A stretch of DNA of 64,000 nucleotides from Natrarchaeobius chitinivorans (GTDB lineage: Archaea; Halobacteriota; Halobacteria; Halobacteriales; Natrialbaceae), in the NCBI RefSeq assembly GCF_003841505.1, contig NZ_REGA01000010.1, forward strand, positions 1 to 64,000, written 5' to 3'. Shown piece after piece: positions 13,403 through 40,419 of the stretch. The notes below the pieces were generated by a model that saw only the letters and a list, made by a program, of their open reading frames with translations, was not told the DNA's origin and did no database searches. The first letter of the stretch is position 1. Every line of letters starts with the position of its first letter. The translations under genes were made by a program, and so were the position numbers.

Positions 13403-13564
13403 ACCCCTGCTCGTGGCTCCACCGACAAAAGGTTGTTCGAAGCGCTCGAACGACACTCGACGACCGACGACCTGGACTCCGACGAGTTCGATCGACAGAA
13501 CAATTACGGATCGGAGTGACAGTAGTATCTGCCCACTTACGACAGGTGAGGGGCGCTGATCAGT

Positions 13565-19107: not shown

Positions 19108-19194
19108 CGTCTTCCGCTGATTCGGCTCTCCGACACTCTTAGAAACGACGGCAGGAAGTAGGCACCCGCTCCGACCAGCGCTTTCTCTCCGCAG

Positions 19195-22724: not shown

Positions 22725-25250
22725 TTAGTAGGACTCACGGAGGACGAGTTTACCGTCCTCGTCGTAGAGCGAAATCGTATCGCCATCGTTGTTCCAGACG
22801 GGGCGTCCGTAGCCCCAGTACACGGTCGAATCGGTGTCGGTCCCGGATCCTGTCCGGAGCGTGATCGTCTCGCCCGGTGCCAGTTCGGTCCCGTCCGGGA
22901 ACTGGTAGGCGTGGTTGGCATCGTCCTCGACGCGCCAGCCCGCTAGATCGACGGTTTCTGGCCCCTCGTTCTCGAGGGCCACGTACTCCTCGGTGAGGTT
23001 CTCCCAGTCGTTTCCTGGCGCGTCCGGCTGGAATTCGGCGATTCTAACCGGCCCGTTCTGGACGTCTGTGGGTGGGGTGGGATAAGCGTGTTCCAGGACG
23101 AGTTCCCCGTCGGCGTTGGAAACGGTCACGACGTCGCCGGTTTTGTTCCAGATCGGGCGACGATACCCCCAGTAAAAGTCCCCGTCACCGTCCTCGCCGA
23201 CTCCGGTACGAAGCGTTATCGTCCCTCCTGGCGAGACCTCAACACCATCGGGGAACTCGTAGGCGTGGTTCGCGTCGTCCTCGACACACCACCGCGAGAG
23301 GTCGAGCCAGCCGCCGCCGGCGTTCTCGAATCGGACGTACTCGCCGTCGAGATGCTCGAAAGGCCCACCCGGTGACTCCGGCTCGACGTCCGTGAGGACG
23401 AGTCGCCCCGTCGGGGGAATCGCCTCACCGTCGGGCATGGAGTCAGTATCGTCGACGGGTGGATCTCCGTCCCCGACACGGGGGTCGACGAGCTGGTCGA
23501 ACGCCAGTCCGCTGTCTGTCCGACCGCGGTCAACGTTCGTGTGCCGGCCACTCCAGAGGTGGACGGTGCCGTCGGTCCACCGCGTGTACTGGTAGGTCCG
23601 CGAGATGGTCTTGCCCCGGCGCGGGACCTCCCGTTTGGGGATCGAGAGCTCTCCCGAGAGCAGTCGACCGATCGGTGCGGGTGGCTCCTCGCCGTCCGTG
23701 AAGACGCGTCCCCTGTCGAGGGTGACCTCTCCGAGGTCGACTCGCCGGGGCAAGAGCGGGAACCAGTTCTCGGGAACGGCAGACGAGAGCTGGTAGGCGA
23801 CGTCGGCCTCCTCGCTCGTTGCCACCGGTTCCGTGGACTCGTCGTCGACCGCAGTCTCGGTCCGCCGATCACGGGCCTGGCCGACCGTGCCCTCGACCGA
23901 GCGCTCGATCGCCCACCCGACGTTCGCCAGCTCGTCGCGGCCGAAGGCGATCTCCTCGACCGTGTCGCTCTCGATGGTCGATCCGAGTACGGGCGGGAGG
24001 AACAACCCGCGATCGTCGCCGTCCGGTGACAGCGGGAACGAGTAGACGTTCCAGTTCGTCGTCGGGTCGTCGTCGACGTCGACCGCGTCCTCGACCTCGA
24101 TCGTCTCGTTGAAGGTCGTCTCGAGGGTGAGGTCGGTAACCTCGGCGATCGAACCGACGTGCTGGTCGATCGGGAGGGTGAACCAGTCGTTCCCGTAGAC
24201 CAGGCCGAACTCCAGGAGCAGGAGCCGCGAGAGGTCCTCAGGGGCGGCTTCGACGGCCGAGAAGTCCACCCCGTCGTCTTCGATTTCCCACCACCGGTAG
24301 GCGGGCATGCCCTTGAACCGAGAGGGCGTCGGAATCCGGTCGTGTGTGTCCGTATCGCTTGCCGGTCCACTCTCGTCGCTCGGTTCCAGGCCGGCATCGT
24401 GCTCGACCGAAAAGTCATCCCAGTCGAGGCGTCCACCCTCGTAGGAGCCGGAAGCGAGGACGGTCTCCCGGTCGCCGCTGCCGGTCGAGACGTCGAATGC
24501 GTACTCGAGGCGCTCGTCGTCCCACGTGCGTTCGCCGTCTTCGGGCTCCTGGTAGGCGTCGTCGTACCAGTCTCGGTACTCATCGAGTCGGTCCCAGAAG
24601 GCGTGAAGATCGTCGTCGCCGTCGACCTCCTCGGGGTCGAAGGTTTCCGGAACCACCGTGTCCGGGAGCGCAACCTCGAGGTCCTCCGCTGTCACGGCCG
24701 CTCGGAAGTCCCGCTCGTCGTCGTAGCCCCAGGCCGACCGAATCTCGTCCCCGTCGACCGTCCTGCCGGCCATGACCGAGGCGTACCGACGGCCGTCGTC
24801 GGCGTCGGTCTCGTCGACGAGCAGGGCCGGCGGGAAGTCCTCGGCCACCAAGCCGAAGCGATCGGAGAGGAGTCGGAGGAAGTGCGACCCAGCCTCGGCT
24901 GCCAGCCGGAGGTCTTTCTCCGGCTCGTCGGGCTCGGTTGGCCGAACGCGCTCGCGCTCGACCAGCGTCTCGAGTGGTGGCTGCGTCGATTCATCACCGT
25001 CGAAGACGGTATCGACGACGGAATCGTCGCTGTTGTCGGGGCTGAACCTGGCCATCGGGTCCTCGGTGATCTCGATTGACGCGTCGACGAGCGACCCGGC
25101 GTCCTGGCCGGTCAGTTCGCCGGTTTGCCACTGGCGACCGAGCAACCAGAGGGGGTCGTGAACGGGGGCCTGCAACCCGTCGACGAGATCTCGGTCTCGC
25201 GTTCTGGGCTCGAGACGCGACCAGGTCGTCACGGACCGTGGATCCATCAC
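22725..25250 (-). CDS. Large uncharacterised protein with two C-terminal lamin-tail-like domains
   Basis: 841 residues from a GTG at 25250 whose first bases (GTGA) overlap the stop of the 2199-residue gene. The N-terminus has a distinctive segment LLGRQWQTGELTGQDAGSL (about residues 36-54), and a middle block contains LLLLEFGLVYGNDWFTLP (about 350-367); I know of no function for either. The C-terminus has two lamin-tail-like beta-sandwich repeats at about 615-723 and 731-841, each with a WLDLSRW/VDLAGW core, a DDANHAY-x-FPDG segment, an ITLRTG strand and a WNNDGD or WNKTGD turn. Lamin-tail domains in prokaryotes are usually found in secreted or surface proteins, but no signal peptide or membrane span is visible. 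Last gene of the giant-protein operon; probably a structural or adhesive terminal component (inference). Confidence 0.85.
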   Translation of the reverse strand: MMDPRSVTTWSRLEPRTRDRDLVDGLQAPVHDPLWLLGRQWQTGELTGQDAGSLVDASIEITEDPMARFSPDNSDDSVVDTVFDGDESTQPPLETLVERERVRPTEPDEPEKDLRLAAEAGSHFLRLLSDRFGLVAEDFPPALLVDETDADDGRRYASVMAGRTVDGDEIRSAWGYDDERDFRAAVTAEDLEVALPDTVVPETFDPEEVDGDDDLHAFWDRLDEYRDWYDDAYQEPEDGERTWDDERLEYAFDVSTGSGDRETVLASGSYEGGRLDWDDFSVEHDAGLEPSDESGPASDTDTHDRIPTPSRFKGMPAYRWWEIEDDGVDFSAVEAAPEDLSRLLLLEFGLVYGNDWFTLPIDQHVGSIAEVTDLTLETTFNETIEVEDAVDVDDDPTTNWNVYSFPLSPDGDDRGLFLPPVLGSTIESDTVEEIAFGRDELANVGWAIERSVEGTVGQARDRRTETAVDDESTEPVATSEEADVAYQLSSAVPENWFPLLPRRVDLGEVTLDRGRVFTDGEEPPAPIGRLLSGELSIPKREVPRRGKTISRTYQYTRWTDGTVHLWSGRHTNVDRGRTDSGLAFDQLVDPRVGDGDPPVDDTDSMPDGEAIPPTGRLVLTDVEPESPGGPFEHLDGEYVRFENAGGGWLDLSRWCVEDDANHAYEFPDGVEVSPGGTITLRTGVGEDGDGDFYWGYRRPIWNKTGDVVTVSNADGELVLEHAYPTPPTDVQNGPVRIAEFQPDAPGNDWENLTEEYVALENEGPETVDLAGWRVEDDANHAYQFPDGTELAPGETITLRTGSGTDTDSTVYWGYGRPVWNNDGDTISLYDEDGKLVLRESY

Positions 25251-28200
25251 TCATCACCCCCGTCGACCCCGACGGACGCCCAGTCGGCCAGGAGGTCGTC
25301 GGGATCGATCGAGGCAGTGTCCGGCCCCGCGGAATCTGCGCTCTCGTTGGTCGCAACGGCCAGACCCGGGAGGACCTGCCCCATCCCATCGATCGCGTGG
25401 CGATCGACCGTTCGGAGCTTCGCCATGTCGACGCTCTCACGGACGACGTCCGCGAGGGTCTCCACGCTCCAGTGGTCGCCGCCCGCGTCGTTTGGCGGGA
25501 CGGCCAGCAGCATCGACTGTGGTGCCTGGTTCGCGGGACGATCGTAGTGGACCGACAGACCTGTCGTTTCGCTCTCTGTCGGAACCGTCTCGACGAGTTC
25601 GTCGACGAACAGCCCGACGCACGTCCCGCTGGTTATCTCGTTTTCGAGCGATCCGTGGACGTACGAGACGACCGACAGCCGACCGGTCGGGTGCTCTCCG
25701 TCCCAGGCGTCGGGGAGGCCGACCCACGTGTCGTCGGCCTCGAACGGGAGCTGTCCAACGGCAAACCGCGATCCGTCCGCCGGCGAGAGTTCGCCGAGTG
25801 CCTCTCCGTAGGCGAGCAGTTTACCGAACCGCCGGGACTCGTCCCGGACGCGCGCGATCCGGTCGAACCAGGTTTCCACGGCCAGCGGGTCCCCCTCCTG
25901 GAGCGCGTCGCTGTGGTCCGACTCGAGGGCGTCGCCCAGCTCGCCGGGATTGGTGGGTTCGAAGGGAACGAGGACGGTGAACGTCTCGCCGAACAGTGCC
26001 TCCAGCCAGTCTACGTAGAAGTCAGGATCTGCCGGAGTCTCGTCGCCGTCCGGGCGCTCGTCGAGCGCGTCGAGTCGATCCACTGCCTCGTCGTAGACGG
26101 AGCCGCTCTGTCTGGCGAGCGTTTCCAGATCTCGGCGGGTGGATCCCGTCGCCGAGAGCGGGACGCTCCCGTGAATGCCGTAATCGGCACACAGTTCGAG
26201 GGCTTCGCGTATCGCCTCGAGTGTGCCCGGGATCAGCATCTGGGTGGGACGACGCCCGGCAGCTTCGACACCCGCGACGACCGTCTCGGCTCCTCCGACG
26301 GTCTCGTCCACGAGGTCGGCGAGATCTGCCGTCGACGGGACGCCTGCTTCGAGGGCTGCCTGTTCGAGGCGCTCGGGATCGAGGTCGTTCTCCGCGACGG
26401 CACGGGCGACGATGGCGATTTGTTCCCAATCCGCGGGCGCGTCGAACCCTGGAAACGAGGCCGACGGTGTCGCACGCACGGCGTCGAGGTCGGCAGCCGC
26501 GTCGTCGGGCCAGTGCTCCTCGTCGAGCTCGCCAGCGGCACCGTCGACCGCGCTTTCGTCCAGCGTTTCGTCTGCGGCCACTACCGGCTCGGCCGATTCC
26601 ACGATGGGTTCGAGCAGGTCGACTACCGCGGCGAACGCCTCGAGTTCGGGCCAGTCGATCGCGTGGGGCGGCCGTTCTCCGTCGACGTACGTCGCGGTGT
26701 ACTCGACTCTCTCTCCGGACTCGTCCTGGACGGTGATGGTGACTTCGTCGCCGGGTTCCAGGCCGCCAGTCTCGAATTCGACCTCGAACTGACCGTCTTC
26801 GTCGGCGGTGGCCGTCCGTATTTGCTGTCCAGGGTTCTGCGGCGAGTTGTTCTGAAGATGTACGCTGACCGTTTCGCCCGGATCGGCCGTTCCCTCGACA
26901 GTCGGGGTCTCCGAGCTGATGACGACCTCTCCAGCGTCGGTTTGTGCGACGAGGACTCCCGACCCGGCGACCGCTGTCGCGACCGTCTCCAGTTCGGTCT
27001 GGAGTGCGTCGATGTCGATCTGACCGAGGGTCGCCTCGATCCCGTCGAGGTCCTCCGTGGGGACCTCGAGCAGGGCTTCGATAAGTTCGGTCAGGTCGTC
27101 GATGGTCCGGTCGTCGGTCTCCTGGTCGGCCGCCAGCAGCGCGACCTGCGGGCCGAGCGTTTCGACTGCGTCGGCGAGCCGTCCGTAGGCCACGTTCGCC
27201 CGTTCGTCGAGGTCGCCGACGACCTGGCCGTCGTCCGTCGCCTCGCCGGGAACCGACAGATCCCGGGCGTCGACCGATCGACTGTGGGTGAGAACCGATC
27301 GAACGCCACGGGCTACCTCGAGGAGTTCACCGAACCCGATACTGTCGTCCGGATCGACGCCGAGGGCCGCGGCATCCGGCCACTCCGCGGGCTGGGCAAA
27401 CGAGAGTCTGATCTCGTGGTCCGGCCCGACGTTGGCGTAGGTTCGCTGGAGGTGATAGCTGACGCGTGACTCGAGCTCCGAGGCCCAGGCGGCCTCGTCA
27501 CCCTCGACGAGCGAAACCACGTCCAGTGACGAGAGCCCGAGTTCGGTCAGCCACACCGCGGTCACCTGCCAGTCGGTCTGTTCGTCCACGTCGTCCCCTC
27601 CGTCTTCCTGGACGTCGTCCGCTTCGCCGTCGTCGTGTTCCTCGCCATCGGCGTCTTCCTCGAGTCTGTACGCGGCCCGACAGGCGACCCTGGTCGGGTC
27701 GCCCATGAGGGTGCCCACCCAGTCCTCGAGGGTGGGTTCGGCTGCCGCCCGGGGAGAGCCCGTCGATTCCCACGGGCTCTTGGCTACGTCTTCTTCGAAC
27801 AGGGAGACGAGCCGGTGGGTGCAACTGGTCCCGGACCGTGGCGTGTCGAGCACTTCGATATCTTCGATGGCCTCGCCCCGCGCGAGGGCGTCGAGTGCCG
27901 CCCCCGCGCGCTCGGGACTGTCCCGGACGAGCTGGTAGACACTCTCTGCGGCGAGAACGTCACGCACCGCGTCGTAGGCCGCTTCGATCGCCGCCAGTTC
28001 GTCCGTGATCGCCTCGTACTCCTCGATTTCGGTCTGGTCGTCCGACTCCGGGTCCGGTAGGTCGAGCTGTTCTGAACCGACTTCCTCGCCCCACGGAATT
28101 CCCTCACCGTCGCCGCCGTCATCTCCTCCACTGCCACCTCCGTCGTCGCCGGTTTGCTCGTCTCGCCACAGCTCGTACAGGGCCACGCCGTCGACGACAT

Positions 28201-31200
28201 CGCGCTCGGCGGCGGCATCCGAGTCCGCCATCTCTTCGCGGTCGATCGACCCCTCGATTAGTGGTGCGAGCGCACGGAAGCCAAAGACGTACTTGTTCAG
28301 TTCGGCGTCGTCGTTCTCGTGGAGGCCACGCTCGAAGCGATACCCCAGCAACTCCCCCAGCGGATAGCCGGCGCGGACGCCCGCAAGCAGATTTCTGGCG
28401 TCTCTGACCCGCTCGGCCGAGAGGTCGACCGTGAACAGGTTGCCGTACTCCTCGGTCTCGGCCTCGTGGGCGCTTCGCATGACCGCGGCGGCCGTCGCCT
28501 GATCGATCGACGGGGCCTGAATGTACCCCTTCGACCGGTCGTCGTCCGATCGCTGGAGGTTCTCGACGTACCCGTAGGCACCGACGTAGAGCCCGTCACC
28601 GGCGGTCTCGCGCATGCCCTCGAGGCGACGGGTCGCAAGCGACGTCGCCCAGGCGTCGTACCGGTGACTGGCCAGGTCGACCGTCTCTCGGACGCGTCGC
28701 TCGACGGCCGTCGGGTCCGCGTCCTCTAGTGCTTCGAAGGCGTCGATCAGTTCGGCGAAAGGCCGATCGATCTCCGGGAACTCCCGGAGCATGTCGCCGA
28801 TCGCCCACTCCGACCGGTAGCCGGGGTGCTCTTGCAGGGAGGCCGGGACGCGCTCGTCGAGTGCGTCCCACATCGTCAGGTCGCCGTCCTCGTGGACCTG
28901 GGGTTCGGGAAGCAACGACCACGCCGAGGACGCCCAACCCGCTTCGTCGCTCGGATCGGGATGGCCGTGTTCGTAGTGGGCAGCGATCCGGATCCGGGCC
29001 AGTCGGTACTCCTGGAGGATGGCGTGGTAGCACAGTGCCTCCGCGACGGACGCGTCGGCTCCACCGAACAGCACCCGAATAATCCAGGTCCCGTCCTCGA
29101 GTTCCTCGGTAGTCGAACCGCCGGTTCCGGGGATCCCCTCGCGGAGCCCACCGTGGGGCGTCGTCCGAAGGGCGCGAAGCGTCGCGTCGAAGTCGTCGCC
29201 CACGACCGACGCGTCGACGACCGGCGCTTGCTGGTCGGCGAAGAGGTCGCCGACGCGCGCGACGGCGTCCTCATCGAGGATCGACTCGAGGTCGTCGGAG
29301 GCGGCAGTCTGGAGCTGGTCGGCCGTCGCGTCGTGGGCCGACTGTCTCTGTGCCTGGAGGGCTGTCCCTGTCATCAGACACGAGATCGCCTCGCCGCCGG
29401 TGAGGTCCCGTAGCCGGTAGCCGTAGCTCGTCCCGGACATCTCGAGTAATTCGGAGCCGACGAGTTCGGGATCGTCCGCCGCGTCGACGCTCGGGACGTC
29501 CGCGCTCGCGTCTTCCCACGTTTCCCAGAGGGCGTCGAGCACTCCAGCGAGTTGTTCGGAGACGTCTTCGTCGGCGTATCGCTCGAGCGGAAGCCCCGAC
29601 GAGGAGGACGGAACGATGTTCTCGGGCGTCGTCTCGAACTCGTCGATGGGTGACCAGTCTTCGTAGGCAGTCGTCGGGACGATCCCGTACGGCTGGGAGC
29701 CAACTCTGATCGGTGGAAGGGGGCCACAGCCACGCACGTACTCGACGAAGTGTCGCCTGACGTTCTCCAGCCAGTACAGGAGTGCTTCCCGCCACTCGAC
29801 TCCCGGCCCCCAGTCGAGTGGAACGAGCAGGTGTGGGACGTAGTACCCCCACGTGGCGGACCACAGGGCGGCGTTGGTCGCCCGGGCGGTCGCGTCCGCC
29901 GTCCCCGTCCCACCGGCCACGCGGTCGAAGACGAACGGTCGGTCGTCACCGATCTGTTGTGGATCGAGCCCGAGGAGCTGGGCCGCCCGAACGGCGTCCG
30001 TGTCCGCTTCGTCCGCCCGGACCGGTGACCGCACGCACTCTCGTTCGTAGACCGACTCGTCGCCGGAGGATGTCGTCGCTGCGGGGTTCTCGCGCGTGTC
30101 GTTGGTCGGCGTTCCGCGCTCGAGGATGGACAGTCCATCGGTGTAGCGATGGGCCTCGACGAGATCTGCGAGCTCGACGGTGGCCTCGTCCTCGTCGAGT
30201 CCCGTCGAAACGCCGAGGACCGTGAGTCTGTCGACGCCCGCAGCTACCTGGTCTTCGGTCAGGTCGAGGCGTAGCGCCATACCGACGTCCTCGGCGACGT
30301 CGAAGTCGAAGACCCACTCGATCTCGCCGGACCTGAAGTCGTCGTACTCGCTTGCGGTCTCGGCTGCACTCTCCATAGATCCCGGGTCCGGACCGATCGA
30401 GAGCGGCGGCTGTACCGGCTCGCTGGTTGCGGTGACCTCCGTGCCGTCCGTCTCGGCGAAGGCGATCCACTGGTCGGGCAGCAACCGTGCTCGCGGCGGT
30501 CGCGTCCACGACCCCGGCCGTCGGTCGACCCCCGAACGGCTGTCTGCCATCTCGTCGACGAAGGCGGCGACGTAGTCCGCCACGTCGGCTTCGTCCTCGG
30601 GGAAGTCGACCTCGTCCGGACCGGCGAGCAACCGGTCGCCGCGTTCGGGTGCCAGCTCGCGTTTGACCCACGACGCCCGTTCCGGGCCGAACCGGTCCGC
30701 CAGTTCGTTCCAGGCTCGTTCTTTCACGGCGGCGTGGCGCTCGTCGGCGTCGTCGGGCAACGCCTCGAGGTCGAGACCGTCGAGCAATCGGTCGGGAATC
30801 GCTTCGACGTGGGAGCGGTCTTCGTCCAGGTGGCACCCCGTCCAGACCCGTTCCCAGAACCGAGCACCGTACTCGACTTCCGCGTCGGTCAACGACTGCT
30901 CGTGAGTGTCGACGTGGAGGTCGTCCGGGTAGACCCGGACTAGCAGCTCGTATTCCGTCGGATCCGAAACCTCCTCGCCGTCCTCGTCGGTCCGTCTGAC
31001 GAATCGCGTCTCGAGTCTCGTCGGTGCGAGCAAGACCGGCGTCTCGTGGTCGAGGTCCGTGTGTGGCGTCGAGTGATCGCTCGGGTACGCATCGGCGAGG
31101 TCCTCCGTCACGCCGTGGAGTGTCTCCCGACGTCGGCCAGCGAAGGTGTCGAGGGCTCTGGCGGTGCGCTCGAAGGGACGCCGCGCGGCAATGTAGCCAC

Positions 31201-31846
31201 CGGGGTCTCCGGCCTCGATGGACTCGACGAGCGCATCGATGGCCGCGGACCGGTAGGCGTCGTCGTCACGGACAGCGAGCAGGTCGTCGCCATACGAGAC
31301 TCCACGTTCGGCCTCCAGCAGATCCTCGAGGTCGGCTTCCGTCCGGACCCCGTCCGCAAAGAGCGCGCCGACGACCGCGGCCGTTCGCTCCTGGTACACG
31401 TCGGCTAAATCGTCTTCGAAGGCCACACCCAGCTCGTCGAGGTGTTCAGCCAGTTCCTCGTCCGGATCGCCACCGGCCGCGTTGACGTCGCGGAGACAGG
31501 CCAGGAGGTCTTCGAACTCCCCCTCGAGCCCATCCCGAAAGACGCGTTCGAGGGCCTCGGCGACGTCTTCGGTCCGCTCGACGCCGAAATCGGCGAAGGT
31601 CGGTCGCGCGGCGAGCAGATCGGCATCTTCGAGGGCTGTCTGTGAATAGCCAAGCTCCTCGACCAGGGCCAGGTGGGATTCGACGGTCGTCGCGACGTCC
31701 TCGACGGAGTCGCCACGACGGGACGCGTCGAACAGCGCCTCGACGTGTGAGAGTTCCGTCAACAGCTTCGATCGGTCGGCTTCGGCCCGGCGAACGTCGT
31801 CGCGGGCCGCGACGTAGTCCGACCGGAGCTGGTCGACGGCGCTCAT
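25247..31846 (-). CDS. Giant uncharacterised protein, 2199 residues, with Ig-like domain
   Basis: One uninterrupted frame of 2199 residues. The N-terminus (about 1-50) is heptad-like and probably coiled coil. A conserved-looking block follows with TRLETRFVRR, LLVRVYPDDLHVDTHEQSLT and a Trp-rich region (about 275-470), then a long central region with PIRVGSQPYGIVPTT (about 705-720). A Gly/Asp-rich linker is near residue 1238. An Ig-like/bacterial Big-type domain lies at about 1630-1720 (TVEGTADPGETVSVHLQNN, then QDESGERVEYTATYVDG). No signal peptide, membrane span or catalytic motif was recognised. The ATG overlaps the stop of a 21-codon micro-ORF, and its own stop overlaps the start of the 841-residue gene. 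By size and position it is the likely scaffold of a multi-protein assembly; that is inference. Confidence 0.88.
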   Translation of the reverse strand: MSAVDQLRSDYVAARDDVRRAEADRSKLLTELSHVEALFDASRRGDSVEDVATTVESHLALVEELGYSQTALEDADLLAARPTFADFGVERTEDVAEALERVFRDGLEGEFEDLLACLRDVNAAGGDPDEELAEHLDELGVAFEDDLADVYQERTAAVVGALFADGVRTEADLEDLLEAERGVSYGDDLLAVRDDDAYRSAAIDALVESIEAGDPGGYIAARRPFERTARALDTFAGRRRETLHGVTEDLADAYPSDHSTPHTDLDHETPVLLAPTRLETRFVRRTDEDGEEVSDPTEYELLVRVYPDDLHVDTHEQSLTDAEVEYGARFWERVWTGCHLDEDRSHVEAIPDRLLDGLDLEALPDDADERHAAVKERAWNELADRFGPERASWVKRELAPERGDRLLAGPDEVDFPEDEADVADYVAAFVDEMADSRSGVDRRPGSWTRPPRARLLPDQWIAFAETDGTEVTATSEPVQPPLSIGPDPGSMESAAETASEYDDFRSGEIEWVFDFDVAEDVGMALRLDLTEDQVAAGVDRLTVLGVSTGLDEDEATVELADLVEAHRYTDGLSILERGTPTNDTRENPAATTSSGDESVYERECVRSPVRADEADTDAVRAAQLLGLDPQQIGDDRPFVFDRVAGGTGTADATARATNAALWSATWGYYVPHLLVPLDWGPGVEWREALLYWLENVRRHFVEYVRGCGPLPPIRVGSQPYGIVPTTAYEDWSPIDEFETTPENIVPSSSSGLPLERYADEDVSEQLAGVLDALWETWEDASADVPSVDAADDPELVGSELLEMSGTSYGYRLRDLTGGEAISCLMTGTALQAQRQSAHDATADQLQTAASDDLESILDEDAVARVGDLFADQQAPVVDASVVGDDFDATLRALRTTPHGGLREGIPGTGGSTTEELEDGTWIIRVLFGGADASVAEALCYHAILQEYRLARIRIAAHYEHGHPDPSDEAGWASSAWSLLPEPQVHEDGDLTMWDALDERVPASLQEHPGYRSEWAIGDMLREFPEIDRPFAELIDAFEALEDADPTAVERRVRETVDLASHRYDAWATSLATRRLEGMRETAGDGLYVGAYGYVENLQRSDDDRSKGYIQAPSIDQATAAAVMRSAHEAETEEYGNLFTVDLSAERVRDARNLLAGVRAGYPLGELLGYRFERGLHENDDAELNKYVFGFRALAPLIEGSIDREEMADSDAAAERDVVDGVALYELWRDEQTGDDGGGSGGDDGGDGEGIPWGEEVGSEQLDLPDPESDDQTEIEEYEAITDELAAIEAAYDAVRDVLAAESVYQLVRDSPERAGAALDALARGEAIEDIEVLDTPRSGTSCTHRLVSLFEEDVAKSPWESTGSPRAAAEPTLEDWVGTLMGDPTRVACRAAYRLEEDADGEEHDDGEADDVQEDGGDDVDEQTDWQVTAVWLTELGLSSLDVVSLVEGDEAAWASELESRVSYHLQRTYANVGPDHEIRLSFAQPAEWPDAAALGVDPDDSIGFGELLEVARGVRSVLTHSRSVDARDLSVPGEATDDGQVVGDLDERANVAYGRLADAVETLGPQVALLAADQETDDRTIDDLTELIEALLEVPTEDLDGIEATLGQIDIDALQTELETVATAVAGSGVLVAQTDAGEVVISSETPTVEGTADPGETVSVHLQNNSPQNPGQQIRTATADEDGQFEVEFETGGLEPGDEVTITVQDESGERVEYTATYVDGERPPHAIDWPELEAFAAVVDLLEPIVESAEPVVAADETLDESAVDGAAGELDEEHWPDDAAADLDAVRATPSASFPGFDAPADWEQIAIVARAVAENDLDPERLEQAALEAGVPSTADLADLVDETVGGAETVVAGVEAAGRRPTQMLIPGTLEAIREALELCADYGIHGSVPLSATGSTRRDLETLARQSGSVYDEAVDRLDALDERPDGDETPADPDFYVDWLEALFGETFTVLVPFEPTNPGELGDALESDHSDALQEGDPLAVETWFDRIARVRDESRRFGKLLAYGEALGELSPADGSRFAVGQLPFEADDTWVGLPDAWDGEHPTGRLSVVSYVHGSLENEITSGTCVGLFVDELVETVPTESETTGLSVHYDRPANQAPQSMLLAVPPNDAGGDHWSVETLADVVRESVDMAKLRTVDRHAIDGMGQVLPGLAVATNESADSAGPDTASIDPDDLLADWASVGVDGGDE

Positions 31847-31908
31847 TGGCCGCCCCTCCGGGTGTCGGTACGCTGGCGATACGACGGTCTCGGCAGATTC
31901 GCGTTCAT
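31843..31908 (-). CDS. 21-codon bridging micro-ORF between the 1206- and 2199-residue genes
   Basis: ATG at 31908 overlaps the stop of the 1206-residue gene (ATGA at 31905-31908), and its own TGA at 31843-31845 overlaps the ATG of the 2199-residue gene (ATGA at 31843-31846). The product would be a basic 21-residue peptide starting MNANLPRPSY. It is unlike the acidic neighbours. Its likely role is to carry terminating ribosomes across the 58-base gap so that translation stays coupled; a functional peptide is possible but unsupported. Confidence 0.45.
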   Translation of the reverse strand: MNANLPRPSYRQRTDTRRGGQ

Positions 31909-34900
31909 GTTGGTTCTCCGTCTTCCGGTATCATGTTGTCGGCGTGAATCGCGGCCCTGAAGGGCCGAATCCACGTGATCGATCCCATATGTGCGCCGTT
32001 TTTCGCCCAGTCGTGGGACTCGGGTAGCTCCTCGGGAACGTCGTTTGAGTCGTCGCTGCTCGGTGTTTCGTCCACCACGGAAACGTAACTCTCGGCGGTC
32101 ACGTCGTTCCAAGTGAGGTTCTGCCAGGTCCACTCTGCGTCCTCGTCGCGGTCTTCGTCGACCTCGAGGCCGAAACTCGGCCCGCTGGGTGGCTCCTCGA
32201 TCACGAAGAACCAGCCGTGGTCGTCCTCGTCCTCGGGGTCCGAGAGGGCTTCGTCCTCATCTATGTCGAACCCGAAGAAGGTGACGTCGGGGTCGAGCGT
32301 GCCCCGGAAGATCGGGTGTTCGACCGTTCCCTCCACGTCGTCGTCGAACGGATCGGGAAGGAGGGGCGTTCGCGTCAGGTGGTCTTCGTCCTCGGCCGAG
32401 TCGCCCTTCGCGGCGTAGACGTGGGTGTTGGGATAGCGGTCGAACAGCGCTCCGCGAACGAGCAAGACGAGCCGACCGCTCGAGCCCTCCTCGTCGTCAC
32501 CCGCGTCATCGGTTCCATCTCCGTCCGTCTCTTCGCCGTCGGCCGCCTTACCTTTGGCGTCCATCTTCTCGGTGTAGTTGTCACCCAGATCGTAGTCGTC
32601 GGCCCACCGGTGGACGTACTCGATGTCCCACTTTTCCTCACCGGTCAGTTCGGGGTCGCGGCCTGCCGGGTCCCAGAACTGTCTGAAGTACGTCCCGCGA
32701 AGGTCAGTCGGGTACTCCCGCCACCGTAACTCACGGGCCATTTCGTGATTGAGGCCGAGCAGGTAGGCTTCGACGAACGCCGGGTTCGTCTCCAGGACGC
32801 CGACGCTGTCCAGGGGAACGTCGCCGACGCCGGGGACGAGGTTCTCCTGGGAGAGATCCCGGAGTGGTGCGTACATCGGCTCGTCGAACTCGGGGTGGGC
32901 CATGATCTGTGCCAGGGGATCCGTGCGATCCCGGATCTCGAGGCCGCCGAGCCGGGCCGCCATGCGTTCGGGGATCGTCTCGGCCGGGTCGGTCGCCTCC
33001 CGGACCGCCTCGGCCGTCCGTTCTAGATCCAGCTTCGGACTCGCATCTGGCGTCGGCCGGGGACACGCACTCCCGGCGAGCGCGTCGGCGACCGGATCGG
33101 TCGGCGCGTCTGCCAGCCGTCGGCGAACCAGGGTGACGTACCACTCGATTTGCTCACAGGTCTCTGACAGCGGTTGGCCGTTACCGTTGGCGTGGTCGGC
33201 TACCACGGCGAGGCGGGCCTCGGCGAGAGCCAGTATCCGCGCCATCCTGGCGACGACCGCACGGATGTCCTCGACGGCCCCGAGGGCAACGGAGTTTCGT
33301 AGCTGCGTGACCGAGCCCGCGGTTCCTTTCTCGTCGCCACACAGTGCGGTACAGAGGTCCTCGAGTTCGGCGACCGCTCGCTTCGCCTCGGAATGATCGA
33401 CGTCGAGGGCCGCGAGTTGCTCGCGGGCGGTTGTGCAGGCGTCTTCGAACAGCACTTCGACGACGATCCGAAGCCGAACGACCGCGAACATCGCCCGAAA
33501 CTCCTCGTATGCAGTTGTGACTCCGGGATCTTCCTCGAGCACGGCGGCGAGTGCCGGATCCGACTGTGACAGCGTCTGGAGCGCCTCGTGGTCGTCAGTC
33601 GCCTCGGACAGCCGTCGTGCGATCTTCCCGAGTGTCACGTCGACCAGCGACCAGTCCTCGGCGGCGACCCCACTCGCGAGCGAACCGAGCAGGCCTCCGC
33701 GGTCTTCATCACAGACCGATTCGAGATGCGAGAGGAACGTTCGGAGCCGATCGAGGGCTGGCCCCTCGTACGCATTCATCGCTGCTTGCGTTCGCTCGCG
33801 TACGACCTGACAGCGGCTACCGAGTGTCTCGACGATCGCCTCGAGTGTGCCCTCGCCAGCCTCGCCGAGGACCTCCCAGTCCGAGTCCTCACCACTGCGC
33901 CCGAGCGCAGTCGAACAGACGTTCTCGGCGAGATCGGCGTCGATGACCTGTGTGCCGTCAGCCGGAGTGCCGTCGTCACCGAGGGTGATCGTCCCGTCGT
34001 TTACCTCCTCGACGATCCGCTCGCGTCGAATCCCACCGATTCGACGCGAAAGCGGTCCGTTCGGGCGGGTGATACGCCGGAAAGCAGGCGACAAGACGGC
34101 CGCAGGAAGTGCGCTGTTCTTGACGGTGGCGGCGACCGTCTGGCCCATCCCTTCGTCGATCGTCCGGCGATGAGCGGGTTCGGTCAGCGACAGGACGGCG
34201 GCGGGATCCAGTTCGTCCAGCCGATCGTGAATCTGCTGGCTTGCCCCCCGGGCGAGGCGGGCCCGTCGCAGGAGCTTGTTGGCCTCGCGGATGTCCCCGA
34301 CCTGTCGCCAGGCCTCGGCCATGAGTTGTTCTTGCTGGTCCTGAACGACGTCGGTCCCGAAGGCGGCCGGTGCCCGGTATCGCGGATCCTCGTTCAGCTC
34401 ACGCAGCCAGGTCGGTTCGTCACCCTCGTCGGGGATTTCGTCGGCCGCGGGGGGCCACTGGCCGTATATCGGCGGTCCGAGGATGCGATCGGTGCCGTCG
34501 GTGTCGGCAACTGCCGTCTCTGGTGCGAGCGCACTCGCCTGGCCGACGAGCTCGACCAGCTCGTCCTGGTAGGTGTAGCTGTCCGTCGAGATATCGAACG
34601 ATTGCATCGCACCCTCGACGGTCACGACCTCTCCGTCGTGATCGAGCGCCTCGGGGCCGAGCGCTTCGGGTCCGGGGTCGCCAGCGTCGACCTGCCGGAC
34701 GCCGACGTCCTCCAGCACCGACGGTTCGAGCCGACGAACGAGTGCCTCGAAGTCGCCCGACTTGCCCGTCGAGAACTCCCAGTGGTAGTACACCGGGAGC
34801 CGAATCCGTTCGGGCGGCTCCTCGAGGTCCCAGGCGTCGCCCGTGACGTCGATTCGGTTGCCCTCGTCGTCGTGCTCGAAGGGATCCTCGCCGATGCCCG

Positions 34901-35525
34901 CGAGTCGTCCCGCCTCGTAGGTCGGGACGACGCAGGCGTAGTAGTCCGTTTCGGCGTCGAGATCCCGCGGCGAGAGGAGCCGCGAGAGGGTAGTATCCGC
35001 GCGATTCGCCTCGAGTGCACCGTCGGTGTCGTCGTCGCCGACCACCTGGGCGTGGGTCCACGCCCAGCTCTCGGTCGGATCCGGCAGGTGGTCTGCCGGG
35101 GACGCCGGATCGTCGATCGCGAGCACGGCACCACCGTCGTCGGGTGCAGTCGACAGCGTGACGCCGTCGGTTTGCTCGACCGTGATCAGACACATCCACG
35201 GCCGGAGCTTCCCGTCGTCGTCTTTGATTTCCGGCGAGAACAGCCAGGGGAGTTCCGGGCGGTCGAACTCCACGATCGGGAAGTGATTCGGCGGGAAGTC
35301 GCTCGTTCCCGGCGTGGGCTCGGTTCGGATCACCTGCCTGCGGTCGATACCCGTCACCTCGCCCGGCCCGTACAGCGAGAGATCCACGCCGACGTCTTTC
35401 GTTTTTGAGTCGCCGTCTCCTCGCCCCTCGACGCTCAACTCGACGCGGATGGTCCCGCCGTCGTCTCTCGGCCGGTACCCGTCACGGACCCAGGGGACGA
35501 AGGTGTACTCTGCGCCCCCAGTCAT
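31905..35525 (-). CDS. Large uncharacterised protein, 1206 residues
   Basis: Single frame of 1206 residues from the ATG at 35525, which overlaps the upstream stop (ATGA). The N-terminal ~130 residues look like a beta-rich domain with LSLYGPGEVTGIDRRQVI and an FPIVEFDRPELPWLF segment. A helical part follows (about 385-440, rich in QQEQLMAEAW, ANKLLRRARLARG). A late domain, about 1020-1190, has LVLLVRGALFDRYPNTHV, DVTFFGFD and GWFFVIEEPPSGPSFGL. A very acidic low-complexity linker precedes that domain. No signal peptide, membrane span or known catalytic motif is visible. These segments give me an impression of conserved uncharacterised bacterial proteins, from memory only. The gene is translationally coupled on both sides, so its product is expected in fixed ratio with the other large proteins. 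Confidence 0.86.
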   Translation of the reverse strand: MTGGAEYTFVPWVRDGYRPRDDGGTIRVELSVEGRGDGDSKTKDVGVDLSLYGPGEVTGIDRRQVIRTEPTPGTSDFPPNHFPIVEFDRPELPWLFSPEIKDDDGKLRPWMCLITVEQTDGVTLSTAPDDGGAVLAIDDPASPADHLPDPTESWAWTHAQVVGDDDTDGALEANRADTTLSRLLSPRDLDAETDYYACVVPTYEAGRLAGIGEDPFEHDDEGNRIDVTGDAWDLEEPPERIRLPVYYHWEFSTGKSGDFEALVRRLEPSVLEDVGVRQVDAGDPGPEALGPEALDHDGEVVTVEGAMQSFDISTDSYTYQDELVELVGQASALAPETAVADTDGTDRILGPPIYGQWPPAADEIPDEGDEPTWLRELNEDPRYRAPAAFGTDVVQDQQEQLMAEAWRQVGDIREANKLLRRARLARGASQQIHDRLDELDPAAVLSLTEPAHRRTIDEGMGQTVAATVKNSALPAAVLSPAFRRITRPNGPLSRRIGGIRRERIVEEVNDGTITLGDDGTPADGTQVIDADLAENVCSTALGRSGEDSDWEVLGEAGEGTLEAIVETLGSRCQVVRERTQAAMNAYEGPALDRLRTFLSHLESVCDEDRGGLLGSLASGVAAEDWSLVDVTLGKIARRLSEATDDHEALQTLSQSDPALAAVLEEDPGVTTAYEEFRAMFAVVRLRIVVEVLFEDACTTAREQLAALDVDHSEAKRAVAELEDLCTALCGDEKGTAGSVTQLRNSVALGAVEDIRAVVARMARILALAEARLAVVADHANGNGQPLSETCEQIEWYVTLVRRRLADAPTDPVADALAGSACPRPTPDASPKLDLERTAEAVREATDPAETIPERMAARLGGLEIRDRTDPLAQIMAHPEFDEPMYAPLRDLSQENLVPGVGDVPLDSVGVLETNPAFVEAYLLGLNHEMARELRWREYPTDLRGTYFRQFWDPAGRDPELTGEEKWDIEYVHRWADDYDLGDNYTEKMDAKGKAADGEETDGDGTDDAGDDEEGSSGRLVLLVRGALFDRYPNTHVYAAKGDSAEDEDHLTRTPLLPDPFDDDVEGTVEHPIFRGTLDPDVTFFGFDIDEDEALSDPEDEDDHGWFFVIEEPPSGPSFGLEVDEDRDEDAEWTWQNLTWNDVTAESYVSVVDETPSSDDSNDVPEELPESHDWAKNGAHMGSITWIRPFRAAIHADNMIPEDGEPT

Positions 35526-38500
35526 GCGTTTACCCCCACTGAAAGCGTCTCGTGAACGCCACAGATCTGATAGTCGTCGGGGTCGCCACCGTTCGAATCG
35601 AGGTAGCCCGAGAGGGCCTCCTCGGCCTCCCGTTTGGTCGTTCCCGCCTCGGGCAGGTCGAGGTCGACTCGAGTCAGGTCGTCAGTCCGCGCGACCACGT
35701 AGTTCGGATCGCCCACGGTGACGCTGGCGTCGACGCCGGTCGGTCCCGTCTCCGTTTCGTCGACCGCGAATCGCTCCTCGCCAGTCGTCCGGAGCGCCCC
35801 GCGAGCCACGGCGCTGACCGATGCGAGACAGGCTGCCGTACTCTGGGGCATTCCGACCGGATCGAGGTGAATCGGGTCGAACCCGTCGGCCTGGTCGTCG
35901 ATCACCGCCGTCTCGTACTCTAAGACGTCGCCCCCGAGCAGATCCTCGTCGTCCTCACCTCCCCAGCCGAACCCGGTGTTCGAGAGGTGTGTTCCTGCTT
36001 CGTAGCGTTCGAACTCCGGTCCTTCCAGCTTTTCGTCGTCGCTCAGATCGAAGTACTCGCCGCGAGCGAACTGTTCTCTGGTCGCCTCGGAGGGATCCTC
36101 GTCGGCGTCGCCGACCGAGGCGTCGACGATCTCGAACCGGTCGTACTCGGCCGGGGACGAGCCCTCGTACTCTTCGATTGTGATGCCGAGTGGTGCCACC
36201 GTCTGTCGGACGCTACACTGGCCGAGCGGGTGGGCGAGGACCTCCCCCTCTCGGGACTCGACCTGTCGAAGCGTCACGACGGAATCGCCGTCTTCGGGCC
36301 GCTGTGCGCTCCAGTTGCGTTCGTCGCCGAGCGCGTCGACGACCTTCCCGAAGACGTCTGCCGGGGGTAACCCGTCGGCGGATTCCGACTCGCCGAACTC
36401 CTCGTCGACGGAGATTTCGAACTCGATCGGCCAGATCTCGAACGTCGCGTCGCCGGTAACGTGCCACGGTCCCGGCCCCGCGAGGGTCCCGTCGACGTCG
36501 ACGGCCATGATCGTCGAACCGCCACGCATCAGGGCGAACCCGGCGTAGAAGTCGGCGATCAGCTCGAAGGGATCGAACCGGAACAGGGTGTCGAATCCCA
36601 TGTCGCCTTCGAAGGAAAATCCGCCCGCGGCGGCGTAGACCTCGACGCTCGCTCCGACCTGGACGGTGTTTGCGGTGACGGCGAAGTACCCTTCCCAGCG
36701 AATCCGCGGGTTGCCGGGCCCGAGCGTCAGCGCGATACGGCGCAACTCCGGGAAGTCTTCCGGCGGATCGTATCGGGGGTTGAAGCCACCGACCGAGAGG
36801 ACGAACTCGGGGTCACCGCCCCAGCCGGTCTTCATCGCCATGTCGCCCGTGAGGGTGTACGCGAGTATCCGGGAGTCGTACAGCGACGCCGCGGCGCTGG
36901 CCTGTTGCTCCCCGATGTCGATGGCCCCGATGACGTCCATGTTGAAGACGACGATACCCACCTCCTCGTGTGGTAGACCGGCGTGGACCCGCCCGAGGAT
37001 GGCGACGCGGATGGGATCGGGCAGTTCCAGCAGGACGCCGAGGCTCGCCGACAGCATCGTCGGCGTTCCCCAGGCAAGCTTGCCCATCGGCCCGAAAACG
37101 TGGTTGCCGGCGGCGACCGGGAACCCGTTCCGGAGGTCGCTGATGATCTGGGGCGCGTTCCGGACCGGGTCGTCCGGGAACATGATCGAGCTGACCGTCC
37201 CGTCGCTGACGCCGGCAACGAGGTAGTCGACGTCCATCGTCCGGTTGATGCCGAGCAAACCGCCGACGCCGTTGAGCGTAAAGCCGAACCCGAGCTGGAC
37301 CGGCGGGAACTCCCCGGAGATGATCAAAAGCAGCGAGAACCCGTCTCGCCCGCCGGGAAGTTGCGTCGTCAGCAGACCGACCGCGCTCAGTGTTAGCTCA
37401 CCGACCTGCAACTGGAGGACGCCGGCGTACCGCTCGTTCTCGTGGTCGAACTCCAGGTAACCACCGCCGACGACGGCACTGGCGTCGACCGAGAGGCCCG
37501 CGCCGTCCGGTGGCTTGAAGCCCAGATCGACGTCGAGAGGGCCGAGGTTGCCGTCGTTGCCTTCCGGGAACGCGATCTCGGCCTCGAGGCCGATACCTTC
37601 GACGGTCGCATCGATCGGGCCGAGCGAGACCTGCGGGTTCGCGGCGACCTGGACCGGAACTGTCACCGTCTCGCCCGACGTGTCCGGTTTCGCAGCGAGG
37701 TGGAGGGTGTCGACGGTGAGGACGTCCGCGACGTTCAGGCCCACCGGGAGGTCAGTGTCCAGGCCCGATCCACCACCCTGGAAGTACAGACCGCGCTCGG
37801 TACTCCAACCCAGTCCGGCATCGAAGTCGATGCCGACGCCGTCTTCGGGAAGGACGTGTTTGATGAAGGAGTCGCCGTCGCCCGGAGCGACGACGAGTGA
37901 TGAATCGCGTGCGTACGCGGTGGTGTCCGATTCGACTGCGGTGGCCGTGGCGGTTGTGGCGCTCTCGATGCCGAGTTGGCCGACTTCGAATCGCGTTCCT
38001 TCGTTGGCACCCACGACGAGCGCCGATTCTGTCCCATCAGTCGACTGTTTCTCCAGTCCCACCGTTGCCGAGAGCGCGGGTTCGTCGTCTGCGTCCAGGG
38101 GTTCGATCCCGTCGGGTGTCAACAGCGATGGCGGCGTCGATCCTCCGAGATCGACCTGAACCACCCAGTTGCCGAACGGGACGTCAGTTCCGGCCTCGCC
38201 ACTCGTCGAGAGCAGCAAGGCGATGCCGTCTTCGGTCAATGTGAACGCGATCTGAACTCGTAGCGTGGTATCCTCGCTGATGGGAACCGACACCAGAAGC
38301 GTCGGCGAGCAGCGTGCGTCTACCCCGTCGTCCGCTTCGTCGAGGTCCGTCGGTTCGGCCCCGACGGAGACGTACAACCCCATCCAGTTTGCAACCGCGG
38401 CGAGCCACTCGATTCCGTAGACGGTGATCGAGTCGAACTCGTTCTCGGAGAGGTCCGCTCCAGTGACGTATTCCTCGCGCAGCGCCTCGACGGGATCCTC

Positions 38501-39043
38501 GAGTAGCGATCCGATCTGCTCGAGGTTTAGTTCGACGTCTCCGTCTCCACCAGCGTCGTACGGATGGGGGTATCGGGGTATCGCGTCCTCGTCCGGCAGA
38601 TCCGGTTGGGAGACGCTGAAGACGCCGAGGAGCGTCGCCACGAAAAACCCACTGGGTCTTTGGCGCTGAACGTAGACGACGGTCAGGTACTCGACGAGGT
38701 GGGGGACGACGTCCTCTGCGTCCACGAATGCGCTGTCGTCTTCGATCTGCTCTATCGTCTCGAAGACGTCACGGGCCGAACCGAGCGCGGTCGCGACCGC
38801 ACCGAGCGAGTCCGATTCGCCCCCGCCGACCGAGTCGTCCAGGGCCTCTATCGCCCCCTCGAGGGGAGAAAGCGAGGATTGTACCGTCCCGATCTGGGAT
38901 TCGGTGACCTCGACGCCGATTGCCTGAAAAATCGATACCAGCTCCTCGCGCCCTGCGGGCGTGTCCTTCGTGGCGAGGACGAGCGGCTGGAAGAACACCT
39001 CGAGTTCGTCCGTCAGTCGGTCCAAAACCGTCGGCGAACTCAT
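35522..39043 (-). CDS. Large DUF6603-like protein, 1173 residues
   Basis: Single frame of 1173 residues; ATG at 39043 overlaps the upstream stop (ATGA) and the stop overlaps the next ATG. The central part, about residues 560-870, resembles the DUF6603 family: GFGFTLNGVGGLLGINRTMD, then FPVAAGNHVFGPMGKLAWG and a LLELPDPIRVAILGRVHA segment. The region is glycine-rich with alternating hydrophobic residues, as in long beta-solenoid or barrel-like proteins. The N-terminal half (about 150-560) also alternates acidic and beta-strand-like segments. No signal peptide is visible (starts MSSPTVLDRLTDEL), and no catalytic motif was recognised. Family recognition is from memory of the motif; a profile search would settle it. 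Confidence 0.84.
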   Translation of the reverse strand: MSSPTVLDRLTDELEVFFQPLVLATKDTPAGREELVSIFQAIGVEVTESQIGTVQSSLSPLEGAIEALDDSVGGGESDSLGAVATALGSARDVFETIEQIEDDSAFVDAEDVVPHLVEYLTVVYVQRQRPSGFFVATLLGVFSVSQPDLPDEDAIPRYPHPYDAGGDGDVELNLEQIGSLLEDPVEALREEYVTGADLSENEFDSITVYGIEWLAAVANWMGLYVSVGAEPTDLDEADDGVDARCSPTLLVSVPISEDTTLRVQIAFTLTEDGIALLLSTSGEAGTDVPFGNWVVQVDLGGSTPPSLLTPDGIEPLDADDEPALSATVGLEKQSTDGTESALVVGANEGTRFEVGQLGIESATTATATAVESDTTAYARDSSLVVAPGDGDSFIKHVLPEDGVGIDFDAGLGWSTERGLYFQGGGSGLDTDLPVGLNVADVLTVDTLHLAAKPDTSGETVTVPVQVAANPQVSLGPIDATVEGIGLEAEIAFPEGNDGNLGPLDVDLGFKPPDGAGLSVDASAVVGGGYLEFDHENERYAGVLQLQVGELTLSAVGLLTTQLPGGRDGFSLLLIISGEFPPVQLGFGFTLNGVGGLLGINRTMDVDYLVAGVSDGTVSSIMFPDDPVRNAPQIISDLRNGFPVAAGNHVFGPMGKLAWGTPTMLSASLGVLLELPDPIRVAILGRVHAGLPHEEVGIVVFNMDVIGAIDIGEQQASAAASLYDSRILAYTLTGDMAMKTGWGGDPEFVLSVGGFNPRYDPPEDFPELRRIALTLGPGNPRIRWEGYFAVTANTVQVGASVEVYAAAGGFSFEGDMGFDTLFRFDPFELIADFYAGFALMRGGSTIMAVDVDGTLAGPGPWHVTGDATFEIWPIEFEISVDEEFGESESADGLPPADVFGKVVDALGDERNWSAQRPEDGDSVVTLRQVESREGEVLAHPLGQCSVRQTVAPLGITIEEYEGSSPAEYDRFEIVDASVGDADEDPSEATREQFARGEYFDLSDDEKLEGPEFERYEAGTHLSNTGFGWGGEDDEDLLGGDVLEYETAVIDDQADGFDPIHLDPVGMPQSTAACLASVSAVARGALRTTGEERFAVDETETGPTGVDASVTVGDPNYVVARTDDLTRVDLDLPEAGTTKREAEEALSGYLDSNGGDPDDYQICGVHETLSVGVNA

Positions 39044-40275
39044 TCTGCGGTCCCCACTAGCGAGAACATATACAGCTCGTTGAGGTGCTCCCAGTATCCC
39101 TCGATGGTGTGGCGCGATCCGTAGCTGTGAGCGTCGAACGTCAGGGCCTCTTCGTCGACCGTGTCTATCGTTTCGACTTCACTCACGAGCGTGATATCGT
39201 GGTCTGCCGTACTCACCACCCGTCCGATGCTCATCCACGTCCCGACGTCATCGGGCGGATCGTGAATGTCGTCGAGATCGAGGATGTCACTCTTCACGGC
39301 GAGGATCGCGAAGCCGCCGTTTTCGACTGCATCGGACGCCTCCATCAGCGTCTGTTGGCTCCCGACCATGCTCTTCCCGACCCAGCTGACGTCCTCCATG
39401 GGGATGAGATCCCCAGTGAAACTGATCGACTGAATCGGGTTGTACCCTCCGAGATCCTCGTCCATCGTCAGTTCGTCGGACGCCGTCGCTTGCCGGAGCG
39501 TGGACAGGAACAGCCAATCCAGGTCGTCCAGGCGTACCAATCCCTCGCCCGGGATTCGTCTCTGTGGTGCGGGTAACGTGTGAAGGGTCTGCTGGCCGCG
39601 ATACACGTCTGACGTGCCGAGGAACCCGTTTGTCTCGTAGATCGACCGACAAATCTCCGCGAACCGGCGAGGGAATTTCGTGGCGATCACGAACCCGATC
39701 GCCGTGATCACACAGTACGGGGTATTCCCCTGGTCGAACTCGAACGCAGGATGGTCTTCGTCTTCCGGATCGAACGACTCGGTCACCATCGATTCGAGAC
39801 GGTCGACGATGTCCGAATGATCCAGGTGCCTCCATCCGCTGAACTCGTCGGAGTCGACGACGGTTTCACCGGCTTCGAATTCCTCGACGGCCGCCTCGAT
39901 GGGATCGACGTCGACGTCACTCTCGACGCTGTACTCGAACCAGACCTTCAAATCTCCGTCGTCGGATTCGTGATTTCCAGCGTAGAATCCGTCGTAAACC
40001 GGACTGTCGATCGTGATCGAGACGCTTTCGGAGTCGTCGAAAAAGAAACTCTCCCCACCGACCTGGAGGGAAATCTCGATCTGGTCGTCGAAGTAGTAGT
40101 TTCGATCGAACGGGTCCGCCAGATCGAACGATATGTCGGTTCCGGTGACTCGAGTTTCGAGCAGGTACGGTTCGCGGACGGATGCACCGTCGATCCAGAC
40201 CGTCGCCTGACAAACCGAGGGCAGATCGACGGCGGTTTGGTTTATTTTGATCGTCGAAAACGAGAACTTGTTCAC
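39040..40275 (-). CDS. Putative papain-like cysteine peptidase with N-terminal beta domain
   Basis: 411 residues from GTG 40275. Residues about 1-130 look like a beta-sandwich (alternating strands, few helices). The second half has a papain-type pattern: Gln182 followed six residues later by Cys188 in DQGNTPYCVITAIGF, the same Gln-to-Cys spacing as the oxyanion Gln and nucleophile of papain, at the start of a hydrophobic helix. A candidate His359 lies in TADHDITLV, and an Asp381 in TFDAHSYG could take the place of the papain Asn. Overall similarity to any named peptidase is low, so this is a fold proposal. It is the first large gene of the operon and could process or assemble the giant proteins. 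The stop overlaps the next ATG. Confidence 0.65.
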   Translation of the reverse strand: MNKFSFSTIKINQTAVDLPSVCQATVWIDGASVREPYLLETRVTGTDISFDLADPFDRNYYFDDQIEISLQVGGESFFFDDSESVSITIDSPVYDGFYAGNHESDDGDLKVWFEYSVESDVDVDPIEAAVEEFEAGETVVDSDEFSGWRHLDHSDIVDRLESMVTESFDPEDEDHPAFEFDQGNTPYCVITAIGFVIATKFPRRFAEICRSIYETNGFLGTSDVYRGQQTLHTLPAPQRRIPGEGLVRLDDLDWLFLSTLRQATASDELTMDEDLGGYNPIQSISFTGDLIPMEDVSWVGKSMVGSQQTLMEASDAVENGGFAILAVKSDILDLDDIHDPPDDVGTWMSIGRVVSTADHDITLVSEVETIDTVDEEALTFDAHSYGSRHTIEGYWEHLNELYMFSLVGTAE

Positions 40276-40382
40276 GGCCGGGACTCACCCTCACACACGT
40301 CGACTGACCCCGAACCTCGGTCGATACCACTGCGAGCAGGATTCCGTGACAGGCTCCAGCCGTCACCCACTTCACCTACCAT
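40272..40382 (-). CDS. 36-codon micro-ORF at the head of the giant-protein operon
   Basis: ATG at 40382 opens 36 codons (MVGEVGDGWSLSRNPARSGI...) ending in a TGA that overlaps the GTG of the papain-like gene (GTGA, 40272-40275), the same overlap used at all later junctions. A TATA box at 40412-40419 lies about 33 bases upstream. It may be a leader peptide that delivers ribosomes to the weak GTG start, or a small protein. Coding status is uncertain because it is short. Confidence 0.4.
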   Translation of the reverse strand: MVGEVGDGWSLSRNPARSGIDRGSGSVDVCEGESRP

Positions 40383-40411
40383 TTGAGATGCGCTCAGTTC
40401 TCAATCCGCTA

Positions 40412-40419
40412 TTATAAAT
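40412..40419 (-). promoter_or_regulatory. TATA box of the giant-protein operon
   Basis: The minus strand reads ATTTATAA, about 33 bases upstream of the micro-ORF ATG at 40382 and 140 bases upstream of the first large gene. It is the best promoter candidate for the whole 17.5-kb operon. A second A/T-rich box (40431-40443) may serve the divergent deoxyhypusine synthase gene. Confidence 0.5.

Follow-up and report, generated by a model that had tools for sequence, protein, structure and literature searches.

In Tc toxin complexes, a scaffold for binding and translocation is joined to a protein of which one part is variable and linked to the cargo. Contractile injection systems (CIS), such as the haloarchaeal CIS (PMC11566945), and type VI secretion systems (T6SS) place exchangeable effectors on a conserved multi-protein core, and the BTH_I2691 family of T6SS effectors includes the pore-forming toxin Tke5 (PMC12909789). 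We analysed a stretch of 64,000 nucleotides from the Natrarchaeobius chitinivorans contig NZ_REGA01000010.1 (the window), whose minus strand carries an operon of five genes, P1 to P5, whose proposed logic of a scaffold plus a variable part resembles that of Tc complexes. Comparison with related cassettes shows gene 1, at the level of sequence, to be an exchangeable slot that is swapped together with the N-terminal half of P2, while the rest of P2 and P3–P5 form a constant platform. What varies here is thus one whole gene and the N-terminal half of the next, whereas in Tc complexes it is a C-terminal region. By profile search, P2–P5 have no significant relatives in the PDB, among Tc chains (TcA, TcB or TcC) and CIS cores or elsewhere, P2 giving weak helical-bundle matches only.

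The constant half of P2 is a DUF6603 domain (PF20248), a family without assigned function. P2 matches it at near full length (model positions 7-501 of 502; 450 bits against a cut-off of 27; E = 1e-134), and here DUF6603 seems to supply the unchanging half of a protein that is specific to its effector.

The swapped unit: gene 1 and the N-terminal half of P2

The gene that directly precedes P2, in many cases with a 4-bp overlap, falls into unrelated families across loci (numbered with the prefix L). PhoD-like proteins form a cluster of 14 loci, with a Pfam match in L023; other families are phospholipase D (PLD), M64 and M14 peptidases, beta-lactamase2, subtilases (S8) and WD40 propellers, and the gene 1 proteins of L060 and L061 contain SHG...GC motifs that by eye recall caspase-like peptidases. 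No marker domain common to the gene 1 families was found, a weak L026/L027 match being the only one. In L120, an open reading frame (ORF; 18661-19410) overlaps the effector gene; judged by eye, its start is like that of an LCAT-type lipase, and the ORF is perhaps truncated.

In the window and three haloarchaeal relatives the slot is occupied by a candidate peptidase. A papain-like pattern had been noted in an earlier, sequence-only reading of this DNA, and the Gln-Cys-His set (Q182, C188 and H359) is indeed invariant in these four sequences; searches of Pfam, NCBIfam and the PDB for a peptidase match lent no support, and we regard P1 as a putative papain-like cysteine peptidase. The proposal of a built-in peptidase has to be given up, because the slot is exchangeable, is filled elsewhere by many unrelated enzymes or pore-former-like proteins, and is swapped along with part of P2.

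The limits of the exchange emerge from closely related Nitrospira cassettes, in which P3 is 84-94% identical. Loci L035 (PLD) and L090 (PhoD) have unrelated gene 1 proteins and share P3, P4 and P5 at 84%, 77% and 82% identity (76-84% over the aligned parts of P2–P5). Along their P2 proteins, identity per 100 residues is 21, 17, 30, 17 and 36%, then 77, 90, 91, 94, 88, 81 and 69%; for L041 and L047 (S8 versus M64) it is 27, 21, 29, 27 and 34%, then 71, 90, 97, 95, 89 and 91%. The sharp boundary near residue 500 corresponds to about residue 440 in the window, at the onset of DUF6603. Different effectors go with 17-39% identity in the N-terminal half of P2 and 69-98% in the remainder, also between two copies within one genome; where the effector is the same, the N-terminal half is 80-91% identical. 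Haloarchaea display the same trend. The window and L029 share 26% identity in gene 1, 22-45% in the first 400 residues of P2 and 55-79% in residues 500-1000. Because the N-terminal half diverges and the DUF6603 half persists across effector swaps, these alignments show the swapped unit to be gene 1 plus the P2 N-terminal half, and the platform to be the DUF6603 half plus P3–P5.

Correspondingly, in pairs whose P3 proteins share 85% identity or more, P2 over its whole length is 62-94% identical for the same effector family (15 pairs) versus 56-77% for different families (28 pairs); the lowest values for the same family, 62-65%, come from pairs with subtilases that share only about 30% identity. 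Across 93 pairs from 23 P2 copies, the correlation with effector identity is stronger for the N-terminal half (rho 0.66) than for the DUF6603 half (0.28), with many copies from related Nitrospira and related pairs treated as independent, so that p-values are indicative only. Five Nitrospira loci (L040, L041, L046, L048 and L074) carry two effector–P2 pairs in tandem before P3; in L041, both copies belong to one genome and their DUF6603 halves share 90-98% identity, as if homogenised by recombination.

The P2–P5 module in archaea and bacteria

Scanning one genome per species yielded 80 loci, and 98 loci, covering Halobacteria and eleven bacterial phyla, were re-scored with iterated profiles. 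P2, P3, P4 and P5 lie in this order on one strand in 70 of the 98 and are partly present in the other 28; a different order occurs in none. Most partial loci are cut by the locus end, which is not clearly so for L079 (without P2) and L102 (without P4). Far from never co-occurring, the homologues of the large proteins clearly travel together, and we conclude from gene content and order that P2–P5 are one module. P3, P4 and P5 are mutually unrelated as far as hhalign detects. Gene order is the same in relatives from plasmids of haloarchaea (Salinigranum, Halalkalicoccus and Halobellus), Streptomyces and Rhizobium, and identity to these relatives is mostly 26-47%. P4 and P5 are fused in 12 proteins from two lineages, a mainly actinobacterial group with Mesorhizobium among its members and, by one protein, Pyrinomonadaceae; this fusion, together with the split of P3 and P4 in Rhizobium, suggests that the parts work together.

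Within the window's order, strong DUF6603 matches occur in 9 of 293 genomes, and P5 occurs in the identical nine, on the same contig. Two further genomes, which lack P5, give weak DUF6603 matches only (G192:C1:2693563-2694006 and G314:C11:304433-305683), in giant ORFs of 2318 and 2886 codons. In a P3 tree (FastTree), haloarchaea form one group (Shimodaira–Hasegawa support 100), with Halobaculum and Halosimplex, members of other families, closest to the window; we read the tree as one inter-domain connection together with movement among haloarchaea. The GC content of the operon (66.0%) lies above that of the left (61.7%) and right (57.8%) flanks, which is consistent with acquisition. An empty site could not be demonstrated, since the deoxyhypusine synthase flank differs in three congeners. 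The sequence-only reading had suspected an inter-domain, mobile module from motifs recalling uncharacterised bacterial proteins; both the mobility and the recurrence of those motifs in bacteria are borne out.

This patchy, mobile distribution would also suit a particle or compartment inside the cell, or a complex for anti-phage defence, as would the lack of a signal peptide, for which a hydropathy scan of P2–P5 homologues gave no indication (P2 being the most hydrophobic), in agreement with what had been noted from the window's sequence. We nevertheless consider any of these very improbable, given the surface-type inserts (PA14, Ig and FG-GAP) and a PADLOC search that matched nothing except the lamin-tail domain. 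Viral relatives were likewise sought: a P4 search of viral contigs returned none, and a match to PHROG 7043, labelled 'tail', has its best stretch in the lamin-tail region of P5. One GenBank entry, from human faeces and titled 'Bacteriophage sp.' (L028, MT835531), carries a P4 homologue and may be bacterial DNA.

The DUF6603-like, Ig-like and lamin-tail-like domains recognised earlier in the window are all confirmed by profile matches. Surface-type inserts vary among lineages: short bacterial P5 proteins lack the lamin-tail domains, Caulobacter P5 carries PA14 and a weak F5/8 C domain, and Streptomyces P3 carries FG-GAP. A P2 model (predicted local distance difference test (pLDDT) 78; predicted template-modelling score (pTM) 0.47) has a helical N-terminus followed by a long antiparallel beta-meander. 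The P4 C-terminal part and P5, modelled from a fused Streptomyces protein (pLDDT 72.5), gave no Foldseek match at E < 0.8 and VIA Z scores of at most 4.1, none convincing in the PDB or BFVD, which does not prove a new fold. No paper on DUF6603 or on this operon was found in an open-access library. Taken together with the lack of a significant PDB relative, of a fold match for the P4 C-terminus and P5, and of a Pfam function, this makes the system look undescribed.

Proposed effector delivery and competing explanations

The variety of gene 1 hydrolases and, above all, the gene 1 proteins of most haloarchaeal cassettes suggested that the exchangeable proteins might be toxins. The latter match the C-terminal region of the BTH_I2691/VasX family (NF041559), with nine haloarchaeal proteins at E values from 2.5e-5 to 2.7e-10, and the match surrounds a hydrophobic segment that they contain. 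In contrast to that family, these proteins sit with P2–P5 and no T6SS, and the window's own gene 1 is of another type. A profile of eleven BTH_I2691-like haloarchaeal gene 1 proteins gave colicin A as its sole PDB hit, a weak one (E = 0.03).

On balance we favour, by a modest degree, the reading that the operon encodes a modular effector-delivery or effector-display complex. In such a complex, the gene 1 protein would be the replaceable effector (here the putative cysteine peptidase) and would dock on the N-terminal half of the P2 that belongs to it; the DUF6603 half of this P2 would join the fixed platform of P3, P4 and P5. Lineage-specific modules in P3–P5 (Ig-like, lamin-tail, PA14 and FG-GAP) may bind the target or surface, and the P2 beta-meander may serve to hold the effector or to carry it through a membrane. 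The assembled particle would be secreted or otherwise released to act on other cells, and toxic effectors would make it an agent of antagonism. As the exchange breakpoint lies inside P2, the docking hypothesis is directly testable with purified fragments.

Several observations weigh against this proposal. The best BTH_I2691 score is 39.5 bits, far under the curated cut-off of 150, and the match is partial, confined to some 80-180 residues of the C-terminal region. Gene 1 classes were mostly assigned by profile only, and the pairwise statistics carry the non-independence given above. No secretion signal and no lysis gene were recognised, nor any immunity gene beside gene 1, as judged by size and hydropathy only. 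The P2 model comes closest to porins and LptD, with a Foldseek E value of 2.6e-5 and a VIA Z score of 14.8 across 267 aligned residues (root-mean-square deviation 9.1 Å); at a deviation near 10 Å, such matches reveal a similar arrangement of strands but do not demonstrate a pore. As to an outer-membrane barrel, P2 occurs also in archaea, which have no outer membrane of this kind.

PhoD, carboxypeptidases and like enzymes could equally serve nutrition, and the missing immunity gene and export signal keep alive a second explanation, in which interchangeable hydrolases are displayed on P2–P5 as a surface or released feeding scaffold, cellulosome-like. Most gene 1 families are indeed scavenging-type hydrolases (phosphatase, phospholipase and peptidases), and P4 and P5 carry surface-binding-type inserts. 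We hold this explanation to be unlikely, if well short of negligible: in haloarchaea the gene 1 family looks more like a pore-forming toxin than an enzyme for nutrition, cassettes usually carry one effector each, and their presence is as patchy as the nine genomes above indicate.

Alternatively, the complex could load or decorate CIS particles. Some gene 1 proteins resemble a T6SS effector family and cassettes sometimes share a genome with a CIS; a gp19-type tube gene is present in 19 of 30 bacterial carriers, compared with 45 of 198 Bacteroidota generally, a control drawn from that one phylum, and in Rhizocola hellebori a second cassette lies directly upstream of a sheath/tube operon. This role is nonetheless improbable. 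Neither a gp19-type tube nor a sheath (PF04984) was found in the window's genome, which is 99.9% complete, while the same tube search was positive in other genomes, so that the earlier remark that sheath and tube are lacking extends to the whole genome. The tube is also missing from 12 of 16 haloarchaeal and 11 of 30 bacterial carriers, and P2–P5 greatly exceed the usual tube cargo in size. The absences in the window's genome and in most haloarchaeal carriers argue that the cassette is independent of a contractile system. Behind the second cassette of the Rhizocola locus (L136-L137; G373, C1:331875-361259) come lanthipeptide-like genes, encoding a small Cys-rich peptide and LanC-like and LanB-like proteins (by eye), and then the sheath/tube operon.

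A more specific form of the delivery proposal, which we advance tentatively, is a contraction-free machine common to archaea and bacteria, in which an effector/P2-N cartridge plugs by recombination into a common platform that would recognise target cells and move the effector through the DUF6603 beta-structure. Should effectors prove to be delivered, the cassette would be an antagonism system that is widespread in both domains and works without contractile tails; DUF6603 and three unnamed giant families would thereby gain a role.

Operon layout and flanking genes

The five minus-strand ORFs have 411, 1173, 1206, 2199 and 841 codons, recovering exactly the one-strand set of sizes first read from the sequence (Table 1). 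Overlaps of 4 bp join P1/P2, P2/P3 and P4/P5, and 58 bp separate P3 from P4. P5 begins GTG then ATG, and its true start may be one codon later; the span originally assigned to the operon ends at 40382, taking in a leader of about 107 bp beyond P1.

Table 1. Positions of the operon's genes, domains and upstream element in the window
Feature	Position	Strand	Basis or remark
P1 (gene 1), 411 aa, exchangeable effector slot, papain-like cysteine peptidase candidate	39040..40275	-	conserved in 4 haloarchaeal cassettes
P2, 1173 aa, whole ORF	35522..39043	-	ORF
P2 N-terminal part, ~aa 1-440, helices 6-220 then strands, varies with gene 1	37724..39043	-	
P2 DUF6603 domain, aa 441-1003, long antiparallel beta-meander, kept whatever the effector	36035..37723	-	
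P2 C-terminal tail, aa 1004-1173	35522..36034	-	
P3, 1206 aa, N- and C-terminal regions conserved, middle lineage-specific	31905..35525	-	
P4, 2199 aa, platform protein	25247..31846	-	
P4 Ig-like (Big_6) insert, aa 1639-1717	26696..26932	-	E 5e-7
P5, 841 aa, whole ORF	22725..25250	-	ORF
P5 core, aa 5-587, part common to bacterial P5 proteins	23490..25238	-	
Two lamin-tail domains, P5 C-terminus, ~aa 606-838	22737..23435	-	E 5e-42
TATA-box-like ATTTATAAT	40411..40419 (40419-40411)	-	upstream of operon, read by eye

High acidity was dropped as a mark of the set: the proteins are acidic, as the sequence-only reading said, but their isoelectric points (4.05-4.2) are near those of neighbouring genes (4.3-4.5), an ordinary trait of a halophile. 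The flanks encode ordinary metabolism (deoxyhypusine synthase, IclR, DctM and a DMFase-like protein). Beside the operon lies an AMP-ligase-like protein (19195-21234, assigned by eye), a second copy of which, 95% identical, is found on contig C14 of the same genome. Farther away, at 12608-14968, the IclR domains of a 786-aa ORF are confined to its last third, and its start was perhaps called too far upstream.
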